From contig CP050848.1 in the NCBI GenBank assembly GCA_014873095.1, positions 5,019,850 through 5,083,849 on the forward strand: DNA of 64,000 nt. The letters are read 5' to 3'. Under the pieces are notes generated by a model. It made no database searches, was not told where the DNA came from, and worked only from the letters and a program-made list of their open reading frames with translations. Made by a program: the position numbers and the translations under genes. This DNA is from Planctomycetales bacterium ZRK34. Lineage in GTDB: Bacteria > Planctomycetota > Phycisphaerae > Phycisphaerales > Zrk34. Below are positions 187 to 11,966 of this stretch, piece by piece. The first letter of the stretch is position 1. Each line of letters begins with the position of its first letter.

Positions 187-1779
187 ATGAATGTCGTGGC
201 ATGGGCACGAGTATCGTCCCGAGAGCAGCGTGAAGGCTATTCGATCGACGCGCAGGTACGCGCCATGCGGGATAAAGCGGGCAAGGCTGGCTGGACGATC
301 GTCAAGGAGTTCGTCGTCGCCGAGTCCGCCAAGCGCGGGGCCGACCGTGTGGCGTTCAACCAGATGTTCAACTGGGTCAAGGTGAACGCCAGGCGGGAGA
401 AGATCAACGCCATCTTCGCGCACAAGCTCGACCGGGTATGCCGGAACATGCGCGACGCCGTCCGGCTCCAGGAACTGGAAGACACCTGCGGCGTGCAACT
501 GACCTTCGTCGAGAACCAGTTCGGTCCCGGCGCGGCCGGAGCGCTGTCGTTCAACGTGATGGCCGCTGTGGCGCAGTACTACTCGGACAACCTGCGCACC
601 GAGGTCATCAAGGGAATGGACGAGAAGGTGCGGCAAGGGTGGCCGACAGGCCTCGCGCCGTTCGGCTACACCAACGTCGACGACCGCAACGAGCCGGTCG
701 TCCCGCACCCCGAGAAATCCAAGACCGTCCAGCGCATCTTCGAGCTCTACGCGGGCGGGCAATACACCTTCAAGAATCTGGCCGACAAGCTCGCGGCCGA
801 GGGCCACACATTTCGTCCGAGCCAGCCGCGATTCCACCGCACGGCGCTGTCGTACATCCTCAACACCCGGTTCTACATCGGCGAACTCGAACGCAACGGC
901 CAGGTCTTCAAGAGCAGTTACCGCTTGCTGATCGACCGCCGTCTCTTCGACGCCTGCCAAGACATCCTCAACGGGCGTAACCGCCGCACCGGCAACCCCG
1001 ACATCGCCTTCTCAGGCGGCATCCTGCGTTGCGCCTGCTGCGAGTTCGCCATGACCGGCGAACTCATCCGCCGAAAGATCAACGGCGGTGGTTGCAACCA
1101 CCACGTCTACTACCGCTGCGGCAACAACCATCCCGACAACGGCCACCCGAAGATTCGATGGCGCGAGGCGGACGTGGAACAGGCCATCGTTGCGGAGATT
1201 GAAGCGTTCCGTTTGCCCAATCCCAAGACGACGCACTGGTTCCGCAACGCGGTTGACGCGGCCTTCAGCGACGTCGGCACCGCCGCCGCCGAGAGGCGGA
1301 AGATGTTGACCAAACGCCGCACGGAACTGACGAACATGTTGGACCGGCTGCTCAACGGCTACCTCGCCGGCACCATCGAGGAGGCCGTCTTCCAGCTCAA
1401 GTCGGCCGATCTGAAATCGCAGACCGCGGAGGTCGAACGCCAACTCGACGAGGCCGAGGAATTCGATCCCGCCTTCGGCCAGGCGGCGCTGTCGGTGTTC
1501 GATTTCAGCCAGAATCTGCTGGAAATCTGGCGCGGTTCAAACTCGGCCCGCAAACGCACCATCCTAGAGTGCGTCAGTTTGAACCGTATGTTGGGTAGCG
1601 CAAGTCTTGTGTTGACAAAGAGAAAGCCGTTCGACTTTTTAGTCGAACGGCCTTTTCTGAAGAAAAGTCGGGGCGACTGGCGGAAACTGGAACCTGCCGC
1701 GACGGTCCAGCCCTTCGTGATCGTCTTCATGCACGGGCCAGTGCCGTGTGTTTCGCGCATCGTTGGCATGGTGGGTTGA
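187..1779 (+). CDS. Large serine recombinase (first copy)
   Basis: A 530-residue site-specific DNA recombinase of the large serine type. The N-terminal resolvase domain has the catalytic serine in WARVSS (S10) and a KLDRVCRN segment. The recombinase domain follows at about residues 150-270, then a zinc ribbon with paired cysteines (CACC and a later CGNNH) and a coiled coil at about 350-430. It is a close relative of the copy at 10415-11911. Similarity between the two starts exactly at the ATG, and no Shine-Dalgarno sequence precedes this start. The C-terminal end runs through a tRNA-derived 13-mer (1668-1680) and then gains about 32 residues not present in the other copy. It probably catalyses integration and excision of the neighbouring element, though whether it is expressed is unclear. 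Confidence 0.9.
   Translation: MNVVAWARVSSREQREGYSIDAQVRAMRDKAGKAGWTIVKEFVVAESAKRGADRVAFNQMFNWVKVNARREKINAIFAHKLDRVCRNMRDAVRLQELEDTCGVQLTFVENQFGPGAAGALSFNVMAAVAQYYSDNLRTEVIKGMDEKVRQGWPTGLAPFGYTNVDDRNEPVVPHPEKSKTVQRIFELYAGGQYTFKNLADKLAAEGHTFRPSQPRFHRTALSYILNTRFYIGELERNGQVFKSSYRLLIDRRLFDACQDILNGRNRRTGNPDIAFSGGILRCACCEFAMTGELIRRKINGGGCNHHVYYRCGNNHPDNGHPKIRWREADVEQAIVAEIEAFRLPNPKTTHWFRNAVDAAFSDVGTAAAERRKMLTKRRTELTNMLDRLLNGYLAGTIEEAVFQLKSADLKSQTAEVERQLDEAEEFDPAFGQAALSVFDFSQNLLEIWRGSNSARKRTILECVSLNRMLGSASLVLTKRKPFDFLVERPFLKKSRGDWRKLEPAATVQPFVIVFMHGPVPCVSRIVGMVG
1626..1651. terminator. Hairpin with flanking T/A runs inside recombinase 3' end
   Basis: An 11-bp perfect stem (GCCGTTCGACT and its complement) with a TTTT loop. 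On the plus strand it is followed by CTTTTCT. On the minus strand it is followed by a TTTCTCTTTG tract. It lies within the recombinase reading frame just before the tRNA-derived core. The matching copy at 11851-11876 lies downstream of tRNA-Pro, where it would act as that gene's terminator. It may alternatively be part of the attachment site. Confidence 0.5.
1668..1680 (+). other. Left attachment-site core (tRNA-Pro 3' end copy)
   Basis: The 13-mer TCGGGGCGACTGG repeats the last 13 bases of the tRNA-Pro gene at 11893-11905, in the same orientation relative to the adjoining recombinase gene. The identity between the two loci extends leftward through the recombinase 3' ends and stops abruptly at this core. 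That is the arrangement expected of one end of an integrated element in a tandem array. Confidence 0.6.
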
Positions 1780-1880
1780 CGGATACGGACGCGGGTGCAC
1801 GCTTTGATAGTTGCCCACGACCGGAGGGTTGCCTTGCGTTTTCGTTTGGGTGGGGTGCGTTCGGCGTTGCAGACGCTCCA

Positions 1881-2528
1881 TCACGCTTCGGCTGAGTTCT
1901 CGTCTGCAGTCCAGGTATCGATCGATGCGGCGGCTCGGCGAATGATCTTCTCATCGTCGCACTCACGCAGTGAGAGCATATCCGGCTCGTCGTCGCTGAT
2001 GTCACTCACGTGGCGAAGCACCAACTCTCGCTTGATGATGCCGTGATGCACGTCCATGTAGAGTTCGCCATCGTCGCGCTGCACGACGGGGGGCAGCATG
2101 AATTCGCCGTGTCGTTGGTACTCCTGCTTGAAACGGGCGAGCATGTCTGGCGCTTCGGGATTGCCGAACTGAGGATGCATCCTCACCACGCGGCCCACGA
2201 ATCTCCGATCCGTATCATCTTCGTCGAGATACTCGTTGAGCGAAGGCGACAAGCGGACGGTGTAGCCCGCTGTCTGCCCCGGCATGTCGCCTTCGATGAT
2301 CGCCACGCGCAGGTCGTCGTTCTCGTCGACATTGCCCACGGCATCAGTCCAGGTGCGGAAGATTTCGATGCCTTTGCGACCGTCGGCGAACACCAATCCC
2401 AAGACCGGCGGCATCTTGCTCGTCGGGTGCCATTGGTAGGCAGTTGCCAGCCAGATCGCTTCGTGCCAATGATGGGATTCGCAGAAACGCAGAGCGGCTT
2501 GTTCAGTGGTGGAAAGCATCTCAGACAT
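1881..2528 (-). CDS. Hypothetical protein in the RHS toxin module
   Basis: A soluble, acidic protein of 215 residues with no signal peptide or membrane segment. I do not recognise a named family. The chosen ATG at 2528 overlaps the stop codon of the upstream gene by a few bases, which suggests translational coupling; an in-frame ATG at 2552 is also possible. It is the last gene of a minus-strand series of transglutaminase-like, RHS tip/toxin, immunity candidate and this gene. Position and acidity make a second immunity or accessory protein likely, but this is inference from context. Confidence 0.75.
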   Translation of the reverse strand: MSEMLSTTEQAALRFCESHHWHEAIWLATAYQWHPTSKMPPVLGLVFADGRKGIEIFRTWTDAVGNVDENDDLRVAIIEGDMPGQTAGYTVRLSPSLNEYLDEDDTDRRFVGRVVRMHPQFGNPEAPDMLARFKQEYQRHGEFMLPPVVQRDDGELYMDVHHGIIKRELVLRHVSDISDDEPDMLSLRECDDEKIIRRAAASIDTWTADENSAEA

Positions 2529-3054
2529 GGCTCGGCGGTTCAAAGTAATCATCCATCGGCTTCTCGCTCATGATCCTTGACAACACTTCTCCGACATGTT
2601 CCGGCGTGAGATCGCACTCAAACGACGGGAAATCCTTGAACGTTACATGGCCCCCGCTTGCGCACCGCTGCGTAACAGATATCATGACACGGCCGGGGCT
2701 TGTTTCAACAACGGGTACATGCTGCCAGCGCTCTAACTCATACCAACCACTGACACCTGCGATCCGAAATCCCTTCTTCTCATTCCTAACAAAGACGTCT
2801 GGTTGTCCGGAGTACGACGATTCGATCCCGCTTCGACTCGATTTGACAGCATCAACTACAGCCTGTCCTAGTAACGATGGCTCGGCTGTTCGTTTCAATT
2901 TCCGTGGGTTGTCCCCTATGCCCGCCCGGCCATAAACATCAGTCCATATCGAATAAATGAAGACGCTGTCATTGCAGTAATAGACTGCCGCACCGTTCGG
3001 CAATGGTTCGGTCAACCGTTCGGATCTCCCTCGAATTCGGTCAAGCCAACTCAT
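2521..3054 (-). CDS. Candidate CDI/RHS immunity protein
   Basis: A 177-residue soluble protein beginning MSWLDRI. It resembles contact-dependent growth inhibition immunity proteins: a small protein with an FIYSIWTD strand, then an LGQAVVDAV helix. The ATG at 3054 lies 10 bases after the stop of the toxin gene, and the gene overlaps the next one downstream. A TTG start at 3084 would overlap the toxin end but looks weaker. Its expected role is to bind and neutralise the C-terminal toxin domain encoded just upstream in the cytoplasm. Family recognition is moderate; the toxin-then-immunity order supports it. Confidence 0.6.
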   Translation of the reverse strand: MSWLDRIRGRSERLTEPLPNGAAVYYCNDSVFIYSIWTDVYGRAGIGDNPRKLKRTAEPSLLGQAVVDAVKSSRSGIESSYSGQPDVFVRNEKKGFRIAGVSGWYELERWQHVPVVETSPGRVMISVTQRCASGGHVTFKDFPSFECDLTPEHVGEVLSRIMSEKPMDDYFEPPSHV

Positions 3055-3064
3055 GTATGGTTTC

Positions 3065-4030
3065 TCACGGAATGAATTGGACAACTACTTTGATGTCCGG
3101 GATTTTCGTGGCTATCTCACGGGACCACTGGACAAGCGCTTTGGCCTGCACAGATGTGGCAGAACCTTGCTCAAACGCCACGACGAGGATCTTGTCCGTA
3201 ATTGCTGGCCCTCCGTGAGGTGTCCCGATTCGGACCCCGTGGCTTGCATCGCCGGTGAAGGCGGCCAACTTACGGGCATACCTGTTTAATTGCGACCGAA
3301 GTCCCGCGGCTGTCTGATATGACGCGCGCGTAAGATCTAAACTCTTGATCGATGTGGCAATTCCACGCCCGCCCTTCACAATGAAGTCATCAATAACCGG
3401 GAAGTTTCGAATTTGTTGCCCCAAGAACGCAGTTGGACGGCTAAGAAGTGTTTTTTCAATGCGGAGTCCTCGCGCAAACTTCTCGAGCCGCCACACAGAG
3501 TTTGGCAGGCGTAATGCACGGAAGTTCCCAATCGCTTGTCCAGCCGCACGAATCTTGAAGGCGTTCGATCCAAACACTCGTGCTATGCCCGCCCCGCCGC
3601 CGCCCAAGACGGCTCCAATCGCAAAATCGAACAAGAGTCCTCTGCCAAAATCCAAGGCCACATCACGCAGGGATGCGCCAGCGGCAAGATCGTGTGCAGC
3701 GGCGATCGCTCGGAAAGGGGCTGATATCAGCAGAGAGATTAGGCCAGCCCGAAGTCCTGCATTCACGAGCGTGCCGACGAGAGATATCTCACCGCTCGGA
3801 TCGACATTCTGTATCGGATCGCCTTCGGCGTAAGCGTACTTGTTCAGCGACAGCGGGTTGGTGAGGACGCCGGGGTGTGGGTCGAGGCGGTTGAATCGGC
3901 CTATTTCCGGGTTGTAGCTGCGCGAGCGGTAGTCGATCGCGATGGGCCGACACGGCACCGTCAGACTCATCCAGGGCAGGCCGTCGCATCCCGGCCGTGT
4001 TTTGGCGTTTTCAGTCAGCATGACCATCAT
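3065..4030 (-). CDS. Short RHS-core protein with C-terminal nuclease-toxin-like domain
   Basis: A 321-residue protein. Near residues 28-75 it has the hyperconserved RHS-associated core (YRSRSYNPEIGRF and later KYAYAEGDPIQNVDPSG), which normally marks the boundary between a huge RHS shell and its variable toxin tip. A hydrophobic linker follows. The last ~120 residues (GIATSIKSLDL, then a Y..KLAAF helix and a final IKVVVQF strand) resemble the CdiA_C type of endonuclease toxin domain. The start ATG at 4030 overlaps the stop of the upstream gene as ATGA. No RHS shell, signal peptide or secretion domain is present, so this is an orphan tip. It may be mobile cargo acquired by recombination. The toxin activity is inferred. 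Confidence 0.65.
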   Translation of the reverse strand: MMVMLTENAKTRPGCDGLPWMSLTVPCRPIAIDYRSRSYNPEIGRFNRLDPHPGVLTNPLSLNKYAYAEGDPIQNVDPSGEISLVGTLVNAGLRAGLISLLISAPFRAIAAAHDLAAGASLRDVALDFGRGLLFDFAIGAVLGGGGAGIARVFGSNAFKIRAAGQAIGNFRALRLPNSVWRLEKFARGLRIEKTLLSRPTAFLGQQIRNFPVIDDFIVKGGRGIATSIKSLDLTRASYQTAAGLRSQLNRYARKLAAFTGDASHGVRIGTPHGGPAITDKILVVAFEQGSATSVQAKALVQWSREIATKIPDIKVVVQFIP

Positions 4031-5337
4031 TGGGCCTCCCGGTGAGCGTGCTGGAGTGAGAGTTCGGGGATGTTGGCCATGACGCAGGCGTCGGGACGCC
4101 GTTGGCCGTTCTGGTGGGATAATCCGAAGGCGGTCATCGCGGCGGCGATGGGATCGGCGATCAGCGACCCCCGGAATGGCGAGGGCGGCCTTGGCGTGCC
4201 GGCGGGGACACCGGGGCGGAGCGGGTCCTGCCCGCACGCCTCCCAGGGCAACGGCGCGGTCGAGCCGGTCTGCCGGGCTCGCAGCCGCTCGAAGAAGGCG
4301 GCACCGGTCAGGCCCCACGGCTCAAGGGCGGCTTGCAGTTTGCGCATGTGCGCCTCCTGAGTGGCCATCGCGGCGGCCGGATCGTGCGGAGCCAAGCGCC
4401 ATGCGTGCGTTGCTGCGATGAAACTCTCGCCATATCGGTCGTTGGCCAGCAGGACGTAGGCACGCTGCAAGAGGAAACTGGCCAGTTCTTCGTTGGGACC
4501 GAGCGACCGCAGGTACAACGGCTTGGCACGGCGGCGCTCGGCGGCGATGACCTGCGGCGTCCACTTCACTGGCCATTGCCGGTAGTGCTCGTCGGGCTTG
4601 ATCACCAGGCCGTTGCCGTGGCATTCGATGTTCATCCGCTCACGCCAGGTCGGATTGCCATGAGCTTGACCTTCACGACCATCCTATCGGCTGAACACGT
4701 GACACGGCGCATGGACCTGAAACATCGGGTAGCCGAGCCGACGACCGATGGCGATGATGAGCACCGGCAGCGATGGGCAACTGCCCGTGCGCCGCGAGCC
4801 CAGAACCCCGTGGAGCAGCACGTCGCGGGAGTCCTTCCAGTCCCAGCGATTCCAGTCGAGCAGACGTGGCTCGTACTGCACGCCGAAGTGCAGTTGCAGG
4901 ACGGTCGTCAGGACGATGATGCGCCAGTAAGGCTCGGAATGGTTGTACTCGGTGGCGTGCCCGTCGAAGTAGGATCGCTCGGCTGCGGTCTGCTGAGCGA
5001 TCCAGGCGGACCAGGCGTCGAGTCTCTCAAGGCACGCGTCGACATCGAGGTCTTCAGCACCCGGAAGGCCCGTGGCGCACAGCAGGTTCAGCCGGGCTGG
5101 ATCACATCGACCAATGTCGTCGGGTTGCAGATCGAGCAGGTCGTTGAAGTGCCGCGGGGTGATGTTGTACGGCTTGTGCAAGGTTCGCACGAAGGCCGGA
5201 TCGACCGATGGGGAGGGTGCTGCGTCTGTCGCAGAAGGAGCCGTGGACGGCGGCCGGGCGTCGGTGGGCCCTTGCCGACCGCGAGCCGCTTCACGTCTTT
5301 GTCTGGCCTGTTCCAGTCTGTGCGCGTCGGTTGCCAA
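4027..5337 (-). pseudogene. Transglutaminase-like protein interrupted by an amber codon
   Basis: One reading frame of 436 codons with a single internal TAG at 4684-4686. The upstream half ends CHVFSR and the next codons continue DGREG through WRERMNIECHGNG, so removing the stop restores a continuous protein. The region around the stop (IIAIGRRLGYP, the interrupted VFSR(W)DG segment, then NIE.HGNG) looks like the core of transglutaminase-like cysteine peptidase proteins, where a Trp is expected at the stop; TGG to TAG explains it. The N-terminus is a charged, Pro/Ala-rich tail. It is the first gene of the toxin operon. If readthrough does not occur, translation may restart at the ATG at 4635. 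Sequencing error remains possible. Confidence 0.6.
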
Positions 5338-5573
5338 GCGAAAGTCCCCGAAGATGAAGATGGAGGGATTATCGCTTTTGGGGAGGGCCTGTCAATCGCG
5401 GTCGTGCGATATCACGGTCAGTCAGACTGTGCCACGGGGTTCGGGGCAACATCGGTAACCGATTCTTCCGCAGATTCTCTGCCGAAAGCGGGCCGCAGGG
5501 CCGCCGATGGCATAGGTAACCAAGGGAGGGACGATGCGTTTTCGATTCACGATGAGGCCCGGATCGGCCCCAT

Positions 5574-5650
5574 GTACCAGATATGGCACGATTTGGGGCA
5601 TCTTCGCCGCGGCGTGTGGGGTTTGGGCCTCGGCGGCAAATAACCATAAC
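5574..5650 (+). repeat. Imperfect direct repeat, copy A
   Basis: Begins GTACCAGATATGGCACGATTTG and ends near GCGGCAAATAACCATAAC. It aligns with 5794-5870 over its whole length, with conserved blocks GTACCA, GGCACRATYTG, a GTTTTGGG-like block and GCGGCAA. Divergence is substantial, so the repeat was judged by eye. Confidence 0.4.
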
Positions 5651-5793
5651 CCTTCTGATGGCCTCGCGGCTGCGGAGATTCCGCCGACATTCTGCGGACG
5701 GGCCGGGTATGTAACCGGAGGGCAGACGCTGCGACCCGCTCCAGCGCTACCGGTGACCCCGCCGGACATGCGGGCGGTCTGAGACCGAAGTTC

Positions 5794-5870
5794 GTACCAA
5801 TACTGGCACAATCTGCGGAAAATCTGCGATTGGGCGCGAAGTTTTGGGGCCCTGCGGCAATAAGCACTAC
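5794..5870 (+). repeat. Imperfect direct repeat, copy B
   Basis: Partner of 5574-5650, beginning GTACCAATACTGGCACAATC and ending near GCGGCAATAAGCACTAC. The 220-base separation and conserved blocks suggest a duplicated regulatory or binding site in the leader. Confidence 0.4.
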
Positions 5871-6120
5871 GGGGCCCATGTGCCAATTCGCCCGCCCGTT
5901 TCGCTCCGCGCCGGGTAATTGATTGGTACCCCTCGCGCGGCAGATCGGCTGCTCAGGCGGGTGTAGTGGTCGAACGCACCATCGTCCGCTCAGTCGGGCT
6001 GGGACACATTCCGGCCGGGTGCAGATGTAGAGAGTGCTTGGAAGCGGGACGGTGCCGCGCGAATCGCATAGATAACCAGTATGGGGGTGTGGTGCCCCAT
6101 CAACGTCACGGAGGACGCCA

Positions 6121-8040
6121 ATGACTGCAGTTACGGAAGACGAGCAGATTGAACACGATGTGGAGGCCGAGCCGCTGGTACTTGCGGCCGAGGGCGTGCA
6201 GGTCGGGCGCAGGCTGCCGACGGTGGAGATCGTCGCCTATTCGGGTGGCGTGATGGCCGTGCCGGGCTGGGGCGATGTCATCATCGATCTGGCGGGCCTT
6301 GATGTTGCCGCAGGTGAGGTGGCGATCCTGGCCGACCACGACGCCAAACGCACCGGCGTCATCGGGCATGGTTCAACCAGCGTCGAGGGCGGCAAGCTGA
6401 TTGTCCGCGGCCGGGTCAGCGGTGATTCCGCTGCCGCCCGCGAGGTGGTTCGCGCCGCTCAAAACGGCTTTCCCTGGCAGGCCTCGGTCGGCGTGCAGCC
6501 GGTCGAGACGCGCCACCTGCGGCCCGGCGAAGCCATCCAGATCAACAACCAGACCGTGACGACGCCCAAGGGCGGCGCGGCGCTCATTGTTCGCGGTCGG
6601 CTGCGCGAGGTCAGCATCACGGCGCTGGGCTGCGACGCCGACACCCACGTTCGAATCGCCGCGATGCGGCAGAAAGGATTCACCCCTATGGAAACCGTCA
6701 AGGAACCGCCGGAATCTACCGACACCATCGCCACCGAGGAACGCAGCGAGATGACCGAGGCCGAGCGCCTCGAACAGATCGAAGCGGCTTATCAGCAGCA
6801 CGACAGGTCCGGCGGCAACGAGCGCGTGCAGGCCGTCCGGGCGCAGGCCATCGAGGAGAGCTGGCCCCCGAACAAGGCTGAGGTGGAGATGCTGCGTGCG
6901 GCTCGCCCGTTGGCATCCGACCTCAGCGTCCGGCGTGACACGGTCGGCGCGAGCCCGGACAAGATGCTCGAGGCGGCGCTGCTGACCTACATGGGCAAGC
7001 CGGAACTGGGCGCAGACGACCTCGGCCCCTACGCCATGGCGCGGGCCGAGCGGTTCGCGGCGACCGGGCTGCTCGACGTGTGCCGCGCCGCTCTGATCGC
7101 CGAGGGCGTGGGCGTTCCGAGCGGTCGCATGGCGATGGTCAAGGCCGCGCTGAGCACGTACTCGCTGCCGGTCGCGCTGGGCAACGTGGCCAACAAGGTC
7201 ATGCTCGATGCGTACAAGGAGACGCCCGCGAGCTGGCGGTCGTTCTGCTCGGTGCGGTCGGTCAGCGACTTCAAGACGCACACCGCCGTGCGTCCAACGT
7301 TCACTGGCCAACTCGAACAGGTCGCGCCGGGTGGTGAACTGCACCACGGCGGCGTCGCCGAGTGGACCACTGAGTACGCCGTGGACACGTTCGGCAAGCT
7401 GATCAGCATCGACCGCCGGGACATCATCAACGATGACCTGAGCATCTTCCACGAGACCGCTGCGGCGCTTGGCCGGTCGGCCATGCGCAAGGTCAGCGAT
7501 CTGATCTACGAGGTATTGCTCAGCAATCCGGGCAACTTCTTCAGCATCGGCAACGGCAACCTGATCACCGGTGCCGAAAGCGCGCTGACCATGGACGGGT
7601 TGAGCAAGGCGATCACCGCCATGCGGACGCAGCGCGACGACGAGGGCAACGACCTCGATCTCAAGCCCGCCGTGCTGCTGGTCGGGCCGGAACTGGAAAC
7701 GGTCGCGAGGGCGCTGCTGGAGAGTGAGTACATCCAGGCCCAGGTCGATGGCCCGACGGGCAATTCGCTGCGTCGCGCGGTGCAGTTGGAGGTCGAGCCG
7801 CGTCTGAGCAACACGCCCAAGTTCGGCTCGGACGCCAGCGATACGCACTGGTTCCTGTTGGCCTCGCCGTCGAACAGTCCGCAGATCGTGGCGTTCCTGA
7901 ACGGTCGCCAGCAGCCGACGACCGAGTTCTTCGGTATCGACCAGAACGTCAACCGCCTGGCGGTTGCGTGGCGCGTGTACCACGACTTCGGCAGCGCGAT
8001 GTGCGATCCGCGTGCGGCGGTTCGCAGCGTTGGCGAGTGA
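6121..8040 (+). CDS. Prohead protease-major capsid protein fusion
   Basis: A 639-residue phage head protein. Residues ~20-190 look like a prohead protease of the S78/Mu I-like kind, with candidate catalytic residues in LADHD and QASVG. A charged, helical scaffold-like linker follows at about 195-270. The remainder matches a Mu gpT/HK97-like major capsid subunit (DRRDIINDDLS, then a LLVGPELE segment and a C-terminal WRVYHDFG). Such fusions self-cleave to mature the capsid. The start is supported by GGAGG six bases upstream of the ATG. It is the only structural gene seen in the element; no portal, terminase or head-completion gene adjoins it. Confidence 0.8.
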   Translation: MTAVTEDEQIEHDVEAEPLVLAAEGVQVGRRLPTVEIVAYSGGVMAVPGWGDVIIDLAGLDVAAGEVAILADHDAKRTGVIGHGSTSVEGGKLIVRGRVSGDSAAAREVVRAAQNGFPWQASVGVQPVETRHLRPGEAIQINNQTVTTPKGGAALIVRGRLREVSITALGCDADTHVRIAAMRQKGFTPMETVKEPPESTDTIATEERSEMTEAERLEQIEAAYQQHDRSGGNERVQAVRAQAIEESWPPNKAEVEMLRAARPLASDLSVRRDTVGASPDKMLEAALLTYMGKPELGADDLGPYAMARAERFAATGLLDVCRAALIAEGVGVPSGRMAMVKAALSTYSLPVALGNVANKVMLDAYKETPASWRSFCSVRSVSDFKTHTAVRPTFTGQLEQVAPGGELHHGGVAEWTTEYAVDTFGKLISIDRRDIINDDLSIFHETAAALGRSAMRKVSDLIYEVLLSNPGNFFSIGNGNLITGAESALTMDGLSKAITAMRTQRDDEGNDLDLKPAVLLVGPELETVARALLESEYIQAQVDGPTGNSLRRAVQLEVEPRLSNTPKFGSDASDTHWFLLASPSNSPQIVAFLNGRQQPTTEFFGIDQNVNRLAVAWRVYHDFGSAMCDPRAAVRSVGE

Positions 8041-8062
8041 CATTTCCTTGACGGCGCGGGTG

Positions 8063-8097
8063 GTCGGGCCGGTGTATGTCTTCCGCACCGGCCCGAC
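8063..8097 (+). terminator. Strong GC hairpin after the capsid gene
   Basis: A 12-bp perfect stem (GTCGGGCCGGTG and its complement) with an 11-base loop, 22 bases after the capsid stop codon. It is followed by GCCCGCTTTCATTC, so the U-tract is poor. It probably ends or attenuates capsid transcription before the helicase gene. Confidence 0.5.
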
Positions 8098-8138
8098 GCC
8101 CGCTTTCATTCATGTCCAAGCCGTGGATAGGAACAGGC

Positions 8139-9497
8139 ATGGTCGCCGAGCAGACAACCGTGATCCCGCCGGGTTACCATGAAGCGAAGATCGTCGCCTC
8201 GCAGATGAACGACACGACCGACGGCAACCGCCTTGATCTGAACTTCGAGATCGTCGGCGGTGCGCATGACGGCTGCACTGTCACCAAGCAACTCCATTTG
8301 AACAGCCGCAACGCGAACACGCTGTGGCGAGACCGTCATGATCTGGCCCGCATCTGTGCTGCGGTCGGGATCATGGCCCCGCACGACAGCAGCGAACTGC
8401 ACAACATTCCGGTGCTCATCGAGGTCGGCGTGAACAAGCGGCGGAACACCATCCTGTCGTATGGGCGCTCGCCTTCAGCCAAGAACAATCCGCCGTCGAA
8501 GCAACGACGCCTCACACTCACGCGCGCCGACCGGATCGAGATGCGCCCGCCCGACTGGCTGCTGCGCGGCATGCTCGAACGCGACACGCTCGCTCTGGTG
8601 TTCGGCGACCCGGGCACCGGCAAATCGTTCCTGGCTATCGACTGGGCCGCGAGGGTGGCCACAGGGACGCCCTGGCGCGGCCAGGCGGTCAAGGCTGGCC
8701 CGGTGGTCTACTTGGCCGGAGAGGGCCGACAGGGGTTCGGCAGGCGTACCCGGGCGTGGGAACAACATCACGGCGTCAGCCTCGCCGAAGCGCCGCTCTA
8801 CGTCGGCCCGGCGGTGGCGATTGCCGACCCGACGGAACTTGTCGATCTGATCGACGCCATCGACGAGGGTGAAGCGCCCGCACTGATCGTGCTGGACACA
8901 TTGGCCCGCTGCTTTGGCGGCGGAGATGAGAACAGCACGCAGGACATGAGCAAGTTCGTATCGGCCTGCGACGCGCTTCGTCGGCGCTACGGCTGCACGA
9001 TCCTCGTGATTCATCACACCGGTCATGCCGACAAGAGCCGCGCCCGAGGTGCGATCGCGCTGAAGGCGGCGCTCGACGCCGAGTATCGATTGTCCGACAA
9101 CGACGCGGGGTTGATATTGACCGCGACGAAGATGAAAGATGCTGAGACGCCGACGCCGTTGAGCTTGGAGATGGTCAGTGTCGAACTGCCGGACCTCGTC
9201 GATGACTATGGCAACCCGGTCACGTCAGCGGCGGTCGAGGTGACGGACGCCGACACCGGCGCTCTCGAATCGCAAGCCCGGACGGTGGCGACCCGTCGAA
9301 GCAAGTGGCAACGGATCGGGTTGGAGATCGCCAGGCGGCTGATGGCCATCGGTGACGATGGTCAGGCCAGCGTCAAGGACTGGCACACCGAGTGCAATGC
9401 CGCCGGGATGCGGCAGTCCACCCGATACGACGTGCTGGCCAAGCTGCAAGAGCGTGGCGACCTGGTGGTGGACAGCGAAAGCATCGTTCCACCGTGA
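8139..9497 (+). CDS. DUF669-like domain fused to RepA-type AAA helicase
   Basis: A 452-residue replication/recombination protein. The first ~110 residues (VIPPGYHEAKI, LDLNFEIV, then LHLNSRNANT) look like DUF669, a phage domain usually found alone next to recombination genes. After a short linker, residues ~130-370 form an AAA_25/RepA-type hexameric helicase: Walker A GDPGTGKS near 156-163, Walker B LIVLDT, and sensor-like VIHHTGH. A winged-helix-like C-terminus follows. In-frame ATGs at 8076 and 8112 also exist; 8139 was chosen because DUF669 proteins begin just before the IPPG segment and the hairpin at 8063-8097 overlaps the longest form. The iteron-rich region directly downstream suggests it helps replicate the element. 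Confidence 0.75.
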   Translation: MVAEQTTVIPPGYHEAKIVASQMNDTTDGNRLDLNFEIVGGAHDGCTVTKQLHLNSRNANTLWRDRHDLARICAAVGIMAPHDSSELHNIPVLIEVGVNKRRNTILSYGRSPSAKNNPPSKQRRLTLTRADRIEMRPPDWLLRGMLERDTLALVFGDPGTGKSFLAIDWAARVATGTPWRGQAVKAGPVVYLAGEGRQGFGRRTRAWEQHHGVSLAEAPLYVGPAVAIADPTELVDLIDAIDEGEAPALIVLDTLARCFGGGDENSTQDMSKFVSACDALRRRYGCTILVIHHTGHADKSRARGAIALKAALDAEYRLSDNDAGLILTATKMKDAETPTPLSLEMVSVELPDLVDDYGNPVTSAAVEVTDADTGALESQARTVATRRSKWQRIGLEIARRLMAIGDDGQASVKDWHTECNAAGMRQSTRYDVLAKLQERGDLVVDSESIVPP

Positions 9498-9520
9498 CCG
9501 ACCTCGCCCTTCCATTTCCG

Positions 9521-9560
9521 ATTCCAATTCCAATGTCCTTAAGGACATTGGAATTGGAAT
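9521..9560. repeat. 40-bp perfect palindrome
   Basis: The 20 bases 9521-9540 (starting ATTCCAATTCC, ending TGTCCTT) are followed directly by their exact reverse complement, with AAGG at the centre-right. There is no spacer. The symmetry continues imperfectly for about 9 more bases on each side. It could extrude as a cruciform and lies 24 bases after the helicase stop codon. Confidence 0.9.
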
Positions 9561-9709
9561 GGAAATTGGAATGAGGGCCTGAACTGAGAGATTGGAATTG
9601 GAGCCCCGAAATTGGAATCGCCACATGCTACTGATAGCAAGCGATTTGCGAGCGACGCAAAGCGAGTCGGCGAAGGCCAGATTGGAACGATTGGAATCCG
9701 AAATTGGAA
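9522..9709 (+). repeat. Iteron cluster, candidate replication origin
   Basis: The heptamer ATTGGAA occurs eight times on the plus strand (at 9547, 9553, 9565, 9591, 9611, 9681, 9690 and 9703) and twice inverted (9522, 9528) within about 190 bases of non-coding DNA. Clusters of short direct repeats beside a RepA-like gene are typical of iteron-controlled origins in plasmids and phages. Function is inferred from arrangement only. No convincing gene overlaps the cluster. Confidence 0.6.
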
Positions 9710-9837
9710 TCGTCGCGGCATGGGTCCTCCCGGGCCGCGAATCTTCCCGATGGCGGCGGAACCAGTCGCGGCCCATGGAAGAGTTTGTTCAAGGTGCGCC
9801 GCTTCTGCCGTAACGCGCCACGGAGGGCATGGTCGCC

Positions 9838-10035
9838 ATGTGGACCCGACGGATGCTGCTGGAGGCCGCGTGGCGGCGATATGGCGACCATCGCGGCTGC
9901 TATCGACGCCGGTGCCAGACCTGCGGGCGGGTGTTCTTCGCCGGCCGGCCCGAGGCACGGTACTGCCGCCCGGCGTGTCGCCAACGGGCCTATCGCAACC
10001 GGCTTCGCGCCGCGATTCATCTCGATCCCATGTGA
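9838..10035 (+). CDS. Small zinc-finger protein
   Basis: A 65-residue basic protein with a CQTCGRVFFA knuckle and a YCRPACRQRAYRNRL segment, giving a C-x2-C...C-x3-C zinc-binding pattern. Similar small proteins occur near phage and mobile-element recombinases and are thought to bind DNA. The ATG at 9838 has GGAGGG about ten bases upstream; the ATG at 9829 is too close to it. It lies between the iterons and the recombinase gene, so a role in transcription or DNA binding of the element is plausible. Confidence 0.6.
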   Translation: MWTRRMLLEAAWRRYGDHRGCYRRRCQTCGRVFFAGRPEARYCRPACRQRAYRNRLRAAIHLDPM

Positions 10036-10053
10036 AAGGACTCACAAGGATGG

Positions 10054-10329
10054 TTGCTGTTTGTGAATCTCGTACCCGACCCCGGAAAGGTCGCTGCACT
10101 CGCCCCGGCCGTGACCAGGCGCATTGCCCGCAAGATCGCGCTGATTCTGCGGCTCAATCGGGCAGATTCGCCCACGATGGCGACCTTCGAGAATCGACTG
10201 GATGTTCGGCCCGAATCGAGGAACATGAAGCTGGTCCGGAGCGGCAGCGTCCCTTGTCGATGGCGTGGATTCCCGACGACCTGCTGGCCGAGACCATCGA
10301 ACTCTGGTCGGAGTCGTACGGCCGCCTGA
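10054..10329 (+). CDS. Possible small basic protein, doubtful
   Basis: The first ~40 codons of this frame have high GC at the third position and encode a basic amphipathic stretch (PDPGKVAALAP, IARKIALILRLNR). The second half loses that character and overlaps the better-supported gene at 10260-10418. It may be a short gene whose end has been lost, or chance. Another frame across the same bases also stays open but has poorer codon use. Confidence 0.25.
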   Translation: MLFVNLVPDPGKVAALAPAVTRRIARKIALILRLNRADSPTMATFENRLDVRPESRNMKLVRSGSVPCRWRGFPTTCWPRPSNSGRSRTAA

Positions 10330-10418
10330 TCAGCGAAGACGAAGCCGTGGAGATTCTCATGAACGTCAAACGAATGGGCGAGTTGCTGGTGAGACTGCGA
10401 AGGGAGGACGTCGAATGA
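10260..10418 (+). CDS. Small acidic protein coupled to recombinase
   Basis: A 52-residue helical protein (MAWIPDDLLAE at its start, then ISEDEAVEIL and MGELLVRLRRED). Its stop overlaps the recombinase start as ATGA, with GGAGG inside its end serving as the recombinase ribosome-binding site. I recall similar short proteins directly upstream of planctomycete phage-type recombinases. Coupled expression suggests a helper role, possibly a recombination directionality factor, but nothing in the sequence proves this. The first recombinase copy at 187 lacks it. Confidence 0.6.
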   Translation: MAWIPDDLLAETIELWSESYGRLISEDEAVEILMNVKRMGELLVRLRREDVE

Positions 10419-11850
10419 ACGTAGTGGCATGGGCACGAGTATCGTCCCGCGAACAGCGCGAGGGCTATTCCATCGACGCGCAGATTCGCGCGATGCGCGA
10501 GAAGGCGGCGAAGGCGGGCTGGACCATCGTCCGCGAATTCGTCGTCGCCGAGTCGGCCAAGCGTGGTGCCGATCGCGTCGCGTTCAACCAGATGTTCAAG
10601 TGGGTCAAGGCCAACGCCAAGCGAGAGAAGATCAACGCCATCTTCGCGCACAAGCTGGACCGCGTCTGCCGCAACATGCGGGACGCGGTTCGGCTTCAGG
10701 AATTGGAAGACACCTGTGGCGTGCAACTGACCTTCGTCGAAAACCAGTTCGGCCCAGGCGCGGCGGGCGCTCTGTCATTCAACGTGATGGCGGCGGTGGC
10801 GCAGTACTACTCGGACAACCTGCGCACCGAGGTCATCAAGGGCATGGACGAGAAGGTCAAACAGGGCTGGCCGACGGGCCTCGCACCGTACGGGTACACG
10901 AACGTCGATGATCGCAACGAGCCGGTCGTGCCGCACCCGGAGAAGTCCAAGACGGTCGTCCGCATCTTCGAGCTCTACGCCAGCGGGCGGTTCACGTTCA
11001 AGAGTCTGGCCGACAAGCTCGCCGCCGAGGGGCACACGTACCGGCCCAGCCAGCCACGATTCCATCGCACCGCACTGTCCTACATCCTCAATAACCGGTT
11101 CTACATCGGCGAACTTGAACGCAACGGGCAGGTCTTCAAGGGCCGTTACCGTCTGCTGATCGACCGCAAGATGTTCGACACCTGACAGGACATCCTCCAC
11201 GGTCGCAACCGTCGGACCGGCAACCCGGACATCGCCTTCTCCGGTGGCCTCCTCCGCTGCGCCTGCTGCGACTTCGCCATGACCGGCGAGTTGATTCGCC
11301 GCAAGCTCAACGACGGTGGGCACAACAAGCACGTCTACTATCGCTGTGGCAACAACCATCCCACCGATGGCCACCCGAAGATTCGCTGGCGCGAGAGCGA
11401 GATCGAAGCGGCCATCGTGAAAGAACTGGATGCGGTCAGATTGCCCGAGCGACACGCGCGATGGTTCCGCAACGCGCTGGAAGCCAGCTTCAGCGACATC
11501 GGCACCGTGCAGGCAGAACAGCGTCGCGTGATGGCCAAGCGTCGCACCGAGTTGGTCAACATGCAGGATCGACTGCTCAACGCCTACCTCGCTGGCTCCA
11601 TCGATGAGCAGACGTTCCAGATCAAGTCGCACGACCTGAAGACGCAGCTTGAGGAGGTCGAACGTCAACTCGACGAGGTGGACAAATTTGACCCGGCATG
11701 CGGCGAGGCGGCGCTGGCGACGTTCGAGTTCAGCCAGAACCTGGTCGAACTGTGGCGTGGTTCAAACTCGACGGGTAAACGGGAGCTGCTGGACGTGGTC
11801 AGTTTGAACCGTAAGGTGAGCGACGTAAGTCTAGTGTTGACAAAAAGAAA

Positions 11851-11876
11851 GCCGTTCGATTTTTTAGTCGAACGGC
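11851..11876 (-). terminator. Terminator of tRNA-Pro inside recombinase 3' end
   Basis: A stem GCCGTTCGA paired with TCGAACGGC. On the minus strand it is followed by TTTCTTTTTG, a good U-tract, and it lies 17 bases after the tRNA 3' end. The hairpin is part of the element (the same structure sits at 1626-1651), so integration appears to have given the tRNA a new terminator. It may also work in the plus direction (CCCTTTTT). Confidence 0.6.
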
Positions 11877-11892
11877 CCTTTTTGAAGAAAAG

Positions 11893-11905
11893 TCGGGGCG
11901 ACTGG
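11893..11905 (+). other. Right attachment-site core within tRNA-Pro
   Basis: The tRNA-Pro 3' end (TCGGGGCGACTGG on the plus strand), identical to 1668-1680. Right of this point the sequence is intact tRNA and chromosome; left of it, recombinase. This marks the junction where the element entered the tRNA gene. Confidence 0.6.
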
Positions 11906-11966
11906 ATTTGAACCAGCGACCTTCTCGTCCCGAACGAGACGCGCTACCAAGCTGCGCTACGCCCCG
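11893..11966 (-). tRNA. tRNA-Pro (anticodon CGG)
   Basis: A complete cloverleaf of 74 bases without encoded CCA. The acceptor stem CGGGGCG pairs with CGCCCCG. The D arm is GCGC-AGCTTGGTA-GCGC. The anticodon arm TCTCG-TTCGGGA-CGAGA gives anticodon CGG. The T arm is GCTGG-TTCAAAT-CCAGT. The discriminator base is A. It is transcribed leftward into the recombinase gene and serves as the integration site. Confidence 0.95.

Follow-up and report, generated by a model that had tools for sequence, protein, structure and literature searches.

Serine recombinase genes of tRNA-Pro-integrated elements in Phycisphaerae cross their attachment core and probably encode a longer enzyme in the circular form

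Results

Two integrated elements and their recombinase genes

The window, that is, the whole stretch of 64,000 nucleotides that was analysed, contains part or all of two elements, A and B, integrated in tandem at a tRNA-Pro(cgg) gene (11,892-11,966, minus strand), which is the target of integration. Element B extends from core to core over ~10.2 kb (1,668-11,905), and is called prophage-like because it carries phage capsid genes (PF25209, PF10124) and AAA genes. Element A is ~5.4 kb in size, and its left end is located outside the window, 3.7 kb beyond the edge (G000:C1:5016146; L007:16147). The 13-bp attachment core, TCGGGGCGACTGG, is found at the A/B junction (1,668-1,680, plus strand), where the crossover was placed by comparing left with right ends, and at the 3' end of the tRNA gene (11,893-11,905, plus strand). 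The 5.7-Mb genome contains three copies of this 13-mer: those at the two junctions and one at a second tRNA-Pro gene (L042, L108; G000:C1:4151675-4161810). This second gene adjoins a frame-broken tyrosine-integrase-like gene and has, at a distance of 10.1 kb, a left end with a tail like that of element A. It should be noted that attL, attR and the tandem integrations are known here from sequence alone.

The gene int A (187-1,779, plus strand) encodes a protein of 530 residues. It has an N-terminal resolvase catalytic domain (Resolvase, PF00239; E 8.9e-20), followed by a recombinase domain (Recombinase, PF07508) and a zinc ribbon (Zn_ribbon_recom, PF13408), and an AlphaFold model contains a long coiled coil (helices 346-393 and 399-422). 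By domain content int A is a large serine recombinase, with a putative role in attP x attB recombination; the domain order is that of the TP901-1 integrase and of SPbeta SprA/YokA, to which it also shows remote sequence similarity. The reading frame crosses the core and runs 32 codons into the left end of element B, so that the protein continues past SRGDW with RKLEPAATVQPFVIVFMHGPVPCVSRIVGMVG before the stop, in agreement with the ~32 additional residues that an earlier note on this DNA had described. These last codons constitute a stranded tail exon of element B (1,669-1,779, plus strand; RGDWRKLEPAATVQPFVIVFMHGPVPCVSRIVGMVG followed by a stop), which is read here as the C-terminus of int A; data from outside the window were needed to assign positions 1,681-1,779 to the left end of element B. 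Element A, too, encodes a version of this tail at its left end. While the enzyme is modelled well by AlphaFold, no structure is obtained for the tail (pLDDT <50). Upstream of int A, positions 1-186 are open, by eye, antisense to a phage tail tape-measure-like fragment, and do not resemble the sequence preceding int B. The original promoter of int A may have been lost.

The second recombinase frame, int B (10,415-11,911, plus strand), is 82% identical to int A, passes through the core at 11,893-11,905 and ends as SRGDWI at a TGA in the T-arm of the tRNA-Pro(cgg) gene, which thus supplies its last codons and its stop, as had been proposed before. The earlier claim that both recombinases read through the 13-mer holds for both frames at the core, but int B is interrupted by an in-frame TGA at codon 257 (11,183-11,185). 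Since int A has TGC at this position, int B is probably a nonsense pseudogene, and the internal stop is absent from the other relatives checked. This TGA may be an assembly error, or element B may rely for its mobility on another copy of the enzyme.

Crossing of the core is a family trait

Searches of related genomes, many of them metagenome assemblies, yielded 49 distinct copies of the recombinase whose end could be read. The int frame enters a tRNA gene in 38 of these (35 tRNA-Pro, and one each for Lys, Arg and Gln), and in three others it leaves the contig inside the tRNA. Three copies are joined to a tail at tandem junctions, namely those of the window, G007 (= L046) and G061 (= L109), and the remaining five have odd ends (L026, which has neither core nor tRNA; L030; L040; L103; and L048, which has a second type of tail). 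Chance is excluded as an explanation because so many relatives (38/49) enter the tRNA in the same way, and the crossing of the core by the int frame is therefore a trait of this family of Phycisphaerae elements. Relatives whose recombinase ends before the core, which would speak against the earlier proposal, were looked for, and one odd copy, L026, was all that emerged. The case of L040 counts against a tRNA-dependent ending: it retains 45 bp of tRNA past the core, and would end as SRGDWI even without the tRNA gene.

The integrated endings range from RI to RIRTCDLLTPSQAR and longer. When the T-arm of the host tRNA is of the TTTGA type the protein stops at SRGDRI, and when it is TTCGA the frame reads on as SRGDRIRTCDLLTPSQAR or much longer. 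The integrated C-terminus thus depends on the host tRNA and nothing fixes it, and, given how widely these endings vary, constraint would have to act on the circular form.

The tail shows constraint at the protein level

The left ends of the elements encode an in-frame tail of ~30-50 residues, roughly RGDxxN(L/F)EPxxx(V/I)xPYVxxFLxPPxPHLLR. A protein profile built from the left ends of A, B and G007 detected the tail at 23 sites, distributed over 16 of 397 Phycisphaerae genomes; most of these are stranded left ends without a recombinase, with host sequence, often including a terminator-like hairpin, before the core. Matches also occur elsewhere in the phylum. The main set was therefore found by a method that favours conserved residues, a bias from which the three seed ends and a DNA-pattern search that was frame-blind past its first 19 bases are free, although these are few (17 matches in 14 genomes for the pattern search, mostly known already). 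Neither the viral contigs, searched with the tail alignment, nor 50,697 phage records, searched with the tail as query, yielded a match or a circular form; TP901-1 and SPbeta SprA/YokA thus differ from int A in that no similar tail was found by sequence.

Several properties of the left ends point to coding function. In 21 of 22 left ends, phase 0 stays free of stops for 33 codons or more; in 15 of the 22 the stop falls at codons 37-41, and no such cluster is seen in phases 1 and 2. Mean pairwise identity is 0.54, 0.60 and 0.44 at codon positions 1, 2 and 3, indels are multiples of three, and NG86 dN/dS lies between 0.07 and 0.50 in all 14 pairs. In six independent pairs the substitutions are distributed 21/23/48 over the three codon positions (p=1.5e-4), and the third-position excess persists beyond codon 10 (p=7.5e-4), these tests resting on short, related sequences. 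Judged by these patterns, the tail evolves as protein.

Two other explanations bear on this result. If the frame merely overlapped the attachment site, neither C-terminus would matter; the very variable, host-dictated integrated endings do indicate that short and odd C-termini are tolerated, but the purifying selection on the tail and its recurrence across the phylum make such a neutral by-product very improbable. It could also be that the left end is conserved as DNA, being the recombinase-binding half of attP, and that the open frame and the tail are by-products. The first ~27 bp are in fact partly conserved as DNA too, with the Glu codon always being GAA, and the same left end is kept by elements that lack an integrase; taken alone, the codon-position test may be compatible with a DNA role for these ~27 bp. 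However, conservation extends over ~110 bp, and a purely DNA-level constraint would leave the third-position excess, the multiple-of-three indels, the dN/dS values below 0.5 and the clustered stop unaccounted for, so that we consider this explanation unlikely. It should be noted that many tail-bearing left ends are located on small elements of ~1-2 kb without an integrase and have no integrase end today; part of the coding signature would hence have been inherited from integrase-bearing ancestors.

Long and short forms of the enzyme

Circular forms were predicted by joining the right and left ends of complete elements. In all five of them (window A, window B, G007, G061 and G068) the int frame remains open into the tail, giving 34-48 residues after RG. 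Both endings also occur in one genome (G033), where two recombinases that are 100% identical over 495 residues, L033 and L036, have different ends: L033 ends as SRGDRI at tRNA-Pro, and L036, located elsewhere, has 48 further residues. The view that the circular form encodes the longer protein and the integrated form the shorter one, which was already put forward in the earlier note, is therefore well supported by the open attP junctions, the protein-level conservation of the tail, and these identical recombinases with both endings. Because the tail evolves as protein and the five predicted circles are open, the long form is probably the selected one, and would be cut short by integration.

The tail of L036 is shared by L048 (G017) and represents a second type, FE[PR]..P..FL.WF....LQ...IEELM.DW, which is attached to recombinases of the same kind, with no TCGGGG core following AGTCG; a relation to the first type was not detectable with the tail profile. 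As they lack the core, L036 and L048 were considered as deletion junctions, and this was dropped since both share the second tail type. The first tail type, in turn, is joined by other recombinases: in G463 (L161) by a remnant resembling a recombinase group of 35% identity, and in G415 (L162) by a member of a different serine recombinase family, which shares only 20% identity with int A and crosses the same tRNA-Pro core, just ahead of which it carries a hairpin of its own.

A hairpin in the 3' end of the int genes

Shortly before the core, the int genes contain a terminator-like bidirectional hairpin (1,623-1,654 in int A, within the codons for KPFDFLVERP; 11,848-11,879 in int B, placed so as to end minus-strand transcription of the tRNA-Pro gene), which a terminator scan detected on both strands at both junctions. 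The corresponding codons, KPFDxLxE(R/G), form a hairpin in 35 aligned distinct relatives. Across this alignment, 98.4% of the cells are paired, and five pairs show double changes, amounting to 30 double-change cells; for instance, the Pro codon (CCG/CCC) changes jointly with the codon for Arg (CGG) or Gly (GGG). None of 500 shuffles was as good, and sliding the alignment destroys the pairing. In addition, the arginine of the KRK motif upstream of the hairpin is encoded by AGA in 29 of 31 cases, compared with 2.1% AGA in the remainder of the genes; on the tRNA strand, this choice of codon places a U-rich run behind the hairpin.

Most likely, this strongly covarying hairpin terminates transcription of the tRNA-Pro gene after integration, replacing the terminator that the incoming element has pushed away. 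On the host side of the left junction of element A, a hairpin precedes a T-run on the tRNA strand; this is presumably the original terminator of the tRNA gene, which now lies ~15.6 kb away. A single stretch of DNA at the 3' end of int would then combine coding sequence, a candidate tRNA terminator and an attachment site.

Discussion

We think it likely that these are tRNA-Pro-targeting serine recombinases of prophage-like elements whose attP site is located in the end of the recombinase gene, and that the tail is a module which would be present only in the circular state and lost on integration. In the circular element, int would be translated at full length, tail included. Integration would take place at TCGGGG[CT]GAC in the 3' end of the tRNA gene; the crossover is placed within this sequence because, to the left of TCGGGG, left ends have the bases of the host and right ends those of the element, with GACTG versus GACAGG showing the converse pattern. 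Recombination with the tRNA gene would relocate the tail exon to the opposite end of the element, where it has no start codon, and the integrated int gene would be completed by codons and a stop provided by the tRNA, ending as SRGDRI or with antisense-tRNA codons that vary with the host. Excision would restore the tail. The most likely role of the tail would be to control the activity or lifetime of the enzyme before integration, for example by promoting integration, by limiting the enzyme or by marking it for degradation, and its loss would mark the integrated state. The change of C-terminus could, as suggested in the earlier note, tune the enzyme between integration and excision.

The closest parallel for such a change is the integration-dependent immunity of mycobacteriophage BPs and its relatives; in BPs, integration removes 33 residues from the repressor, the long form of which is degraded (Broussard et al. 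2013; PMC4557955). In both cases attP lies inside an open reading frame and integration shortens the C-terminus, by 33 residues in BPs and by ~30-48 here; in contrast, the BPs protein is a repressor and the change was demonstrated experimentally, while the protein considered here is a serine recombinase known from its sequence. In this precedent, the viral form of the repressor, gp33, has 33 extra residues and is degraded (PMC4557955), which also lends some weight to the idea that the tail is an ssrA-like C-terminal degradation tag, so that the enzyme of the circular form would be short-lived and integration would remove the tag. Consistent with this idea, the last residue is Ala in 16 of 26 tails, frequently within [I/L]xRx[S/C/T]A and in one case within LVA. 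However, the tail is conserved along its whole length, which is more than a simple degron needs, and the tails of A, B and G007 lack a terminal Ala; we regard a degradation tag as a possibility, though not a probable one.

Archaeal suicidal integrases of the SSV type resemble the present case in that the attachment site lies inside the integrase gene, which is altered on integration (PMC8371274). They differ in being tyrosine recombinases that are split into two large pieces, whereas the bacterial serine recombinase would lose only a short tail. According to a review, self-disrupting recombinases are exclusively archaeal (PMC8371274), and our own search found no bacterial serine integrase with an integration-dependent C-terminus among the open-access papers covered. 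In KplE1-type prophages, which also integrate at a tRNA gene, attL overlaps the integrase promoter (PMC2951348); there, as here, the integration state and the position of the attachment site bear on integrase expression, but the overlap concerns the 5' end of the integrase gene instead of its 3' coding end. If our view is correct, the integration state of these enzymes is written into their own sequence and recombination edits the recombinase, which would provide a bacterial serine-recombinase counterpart to the self-altering archaeal integrases, with a circle-only tail that is maintained by selection. Serine integrases are used in genome engineering, and a natural tail would be useful if it biased the reaction towards one direction, as it might here.

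A more speculative view, which we consider doubtful, is that the tail is an exchangeable 3' exon. A recombinase in a tandem array would acquire the tail of its right-hand neighbour, be it an element or a cassette without an integrase, so that its C-terminus would read out its state (circular, at a tRNA gene or next to a particular neighbour), and the left ends would allow the recombinase to move small gene cassettes in trans at tRNA-Pro, in an integron-like manner.

Small elements of ~0.7-1.8 kb without an integrase, each starting with a core and a tail, are stacked at tRNA-Pro genes at several loci (L121, L112, L113, L114, L115, L118 and L125); in L121 (G195:C241), cores are located at ~1514, 2477 and 3223, and the tRNA-Pro gene at 4495. 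Their cargo consists of single genes which, as judged by eye, include a VapC/Phd-like pair, an S23-like four-helix protein, a secreted glycosidase-like protein and an AlbA_2-like protein. Such a locus has the appearance of an array of cassettes that the serine recombinase mobilizes in trans. Another locus, L117 (G347:C108, 3448-3570), is a deletion derivative that has kept the tail at its left end and only the last ~40-50 recombinase codons at its right end, as would be expected if both halves of attP are needed.
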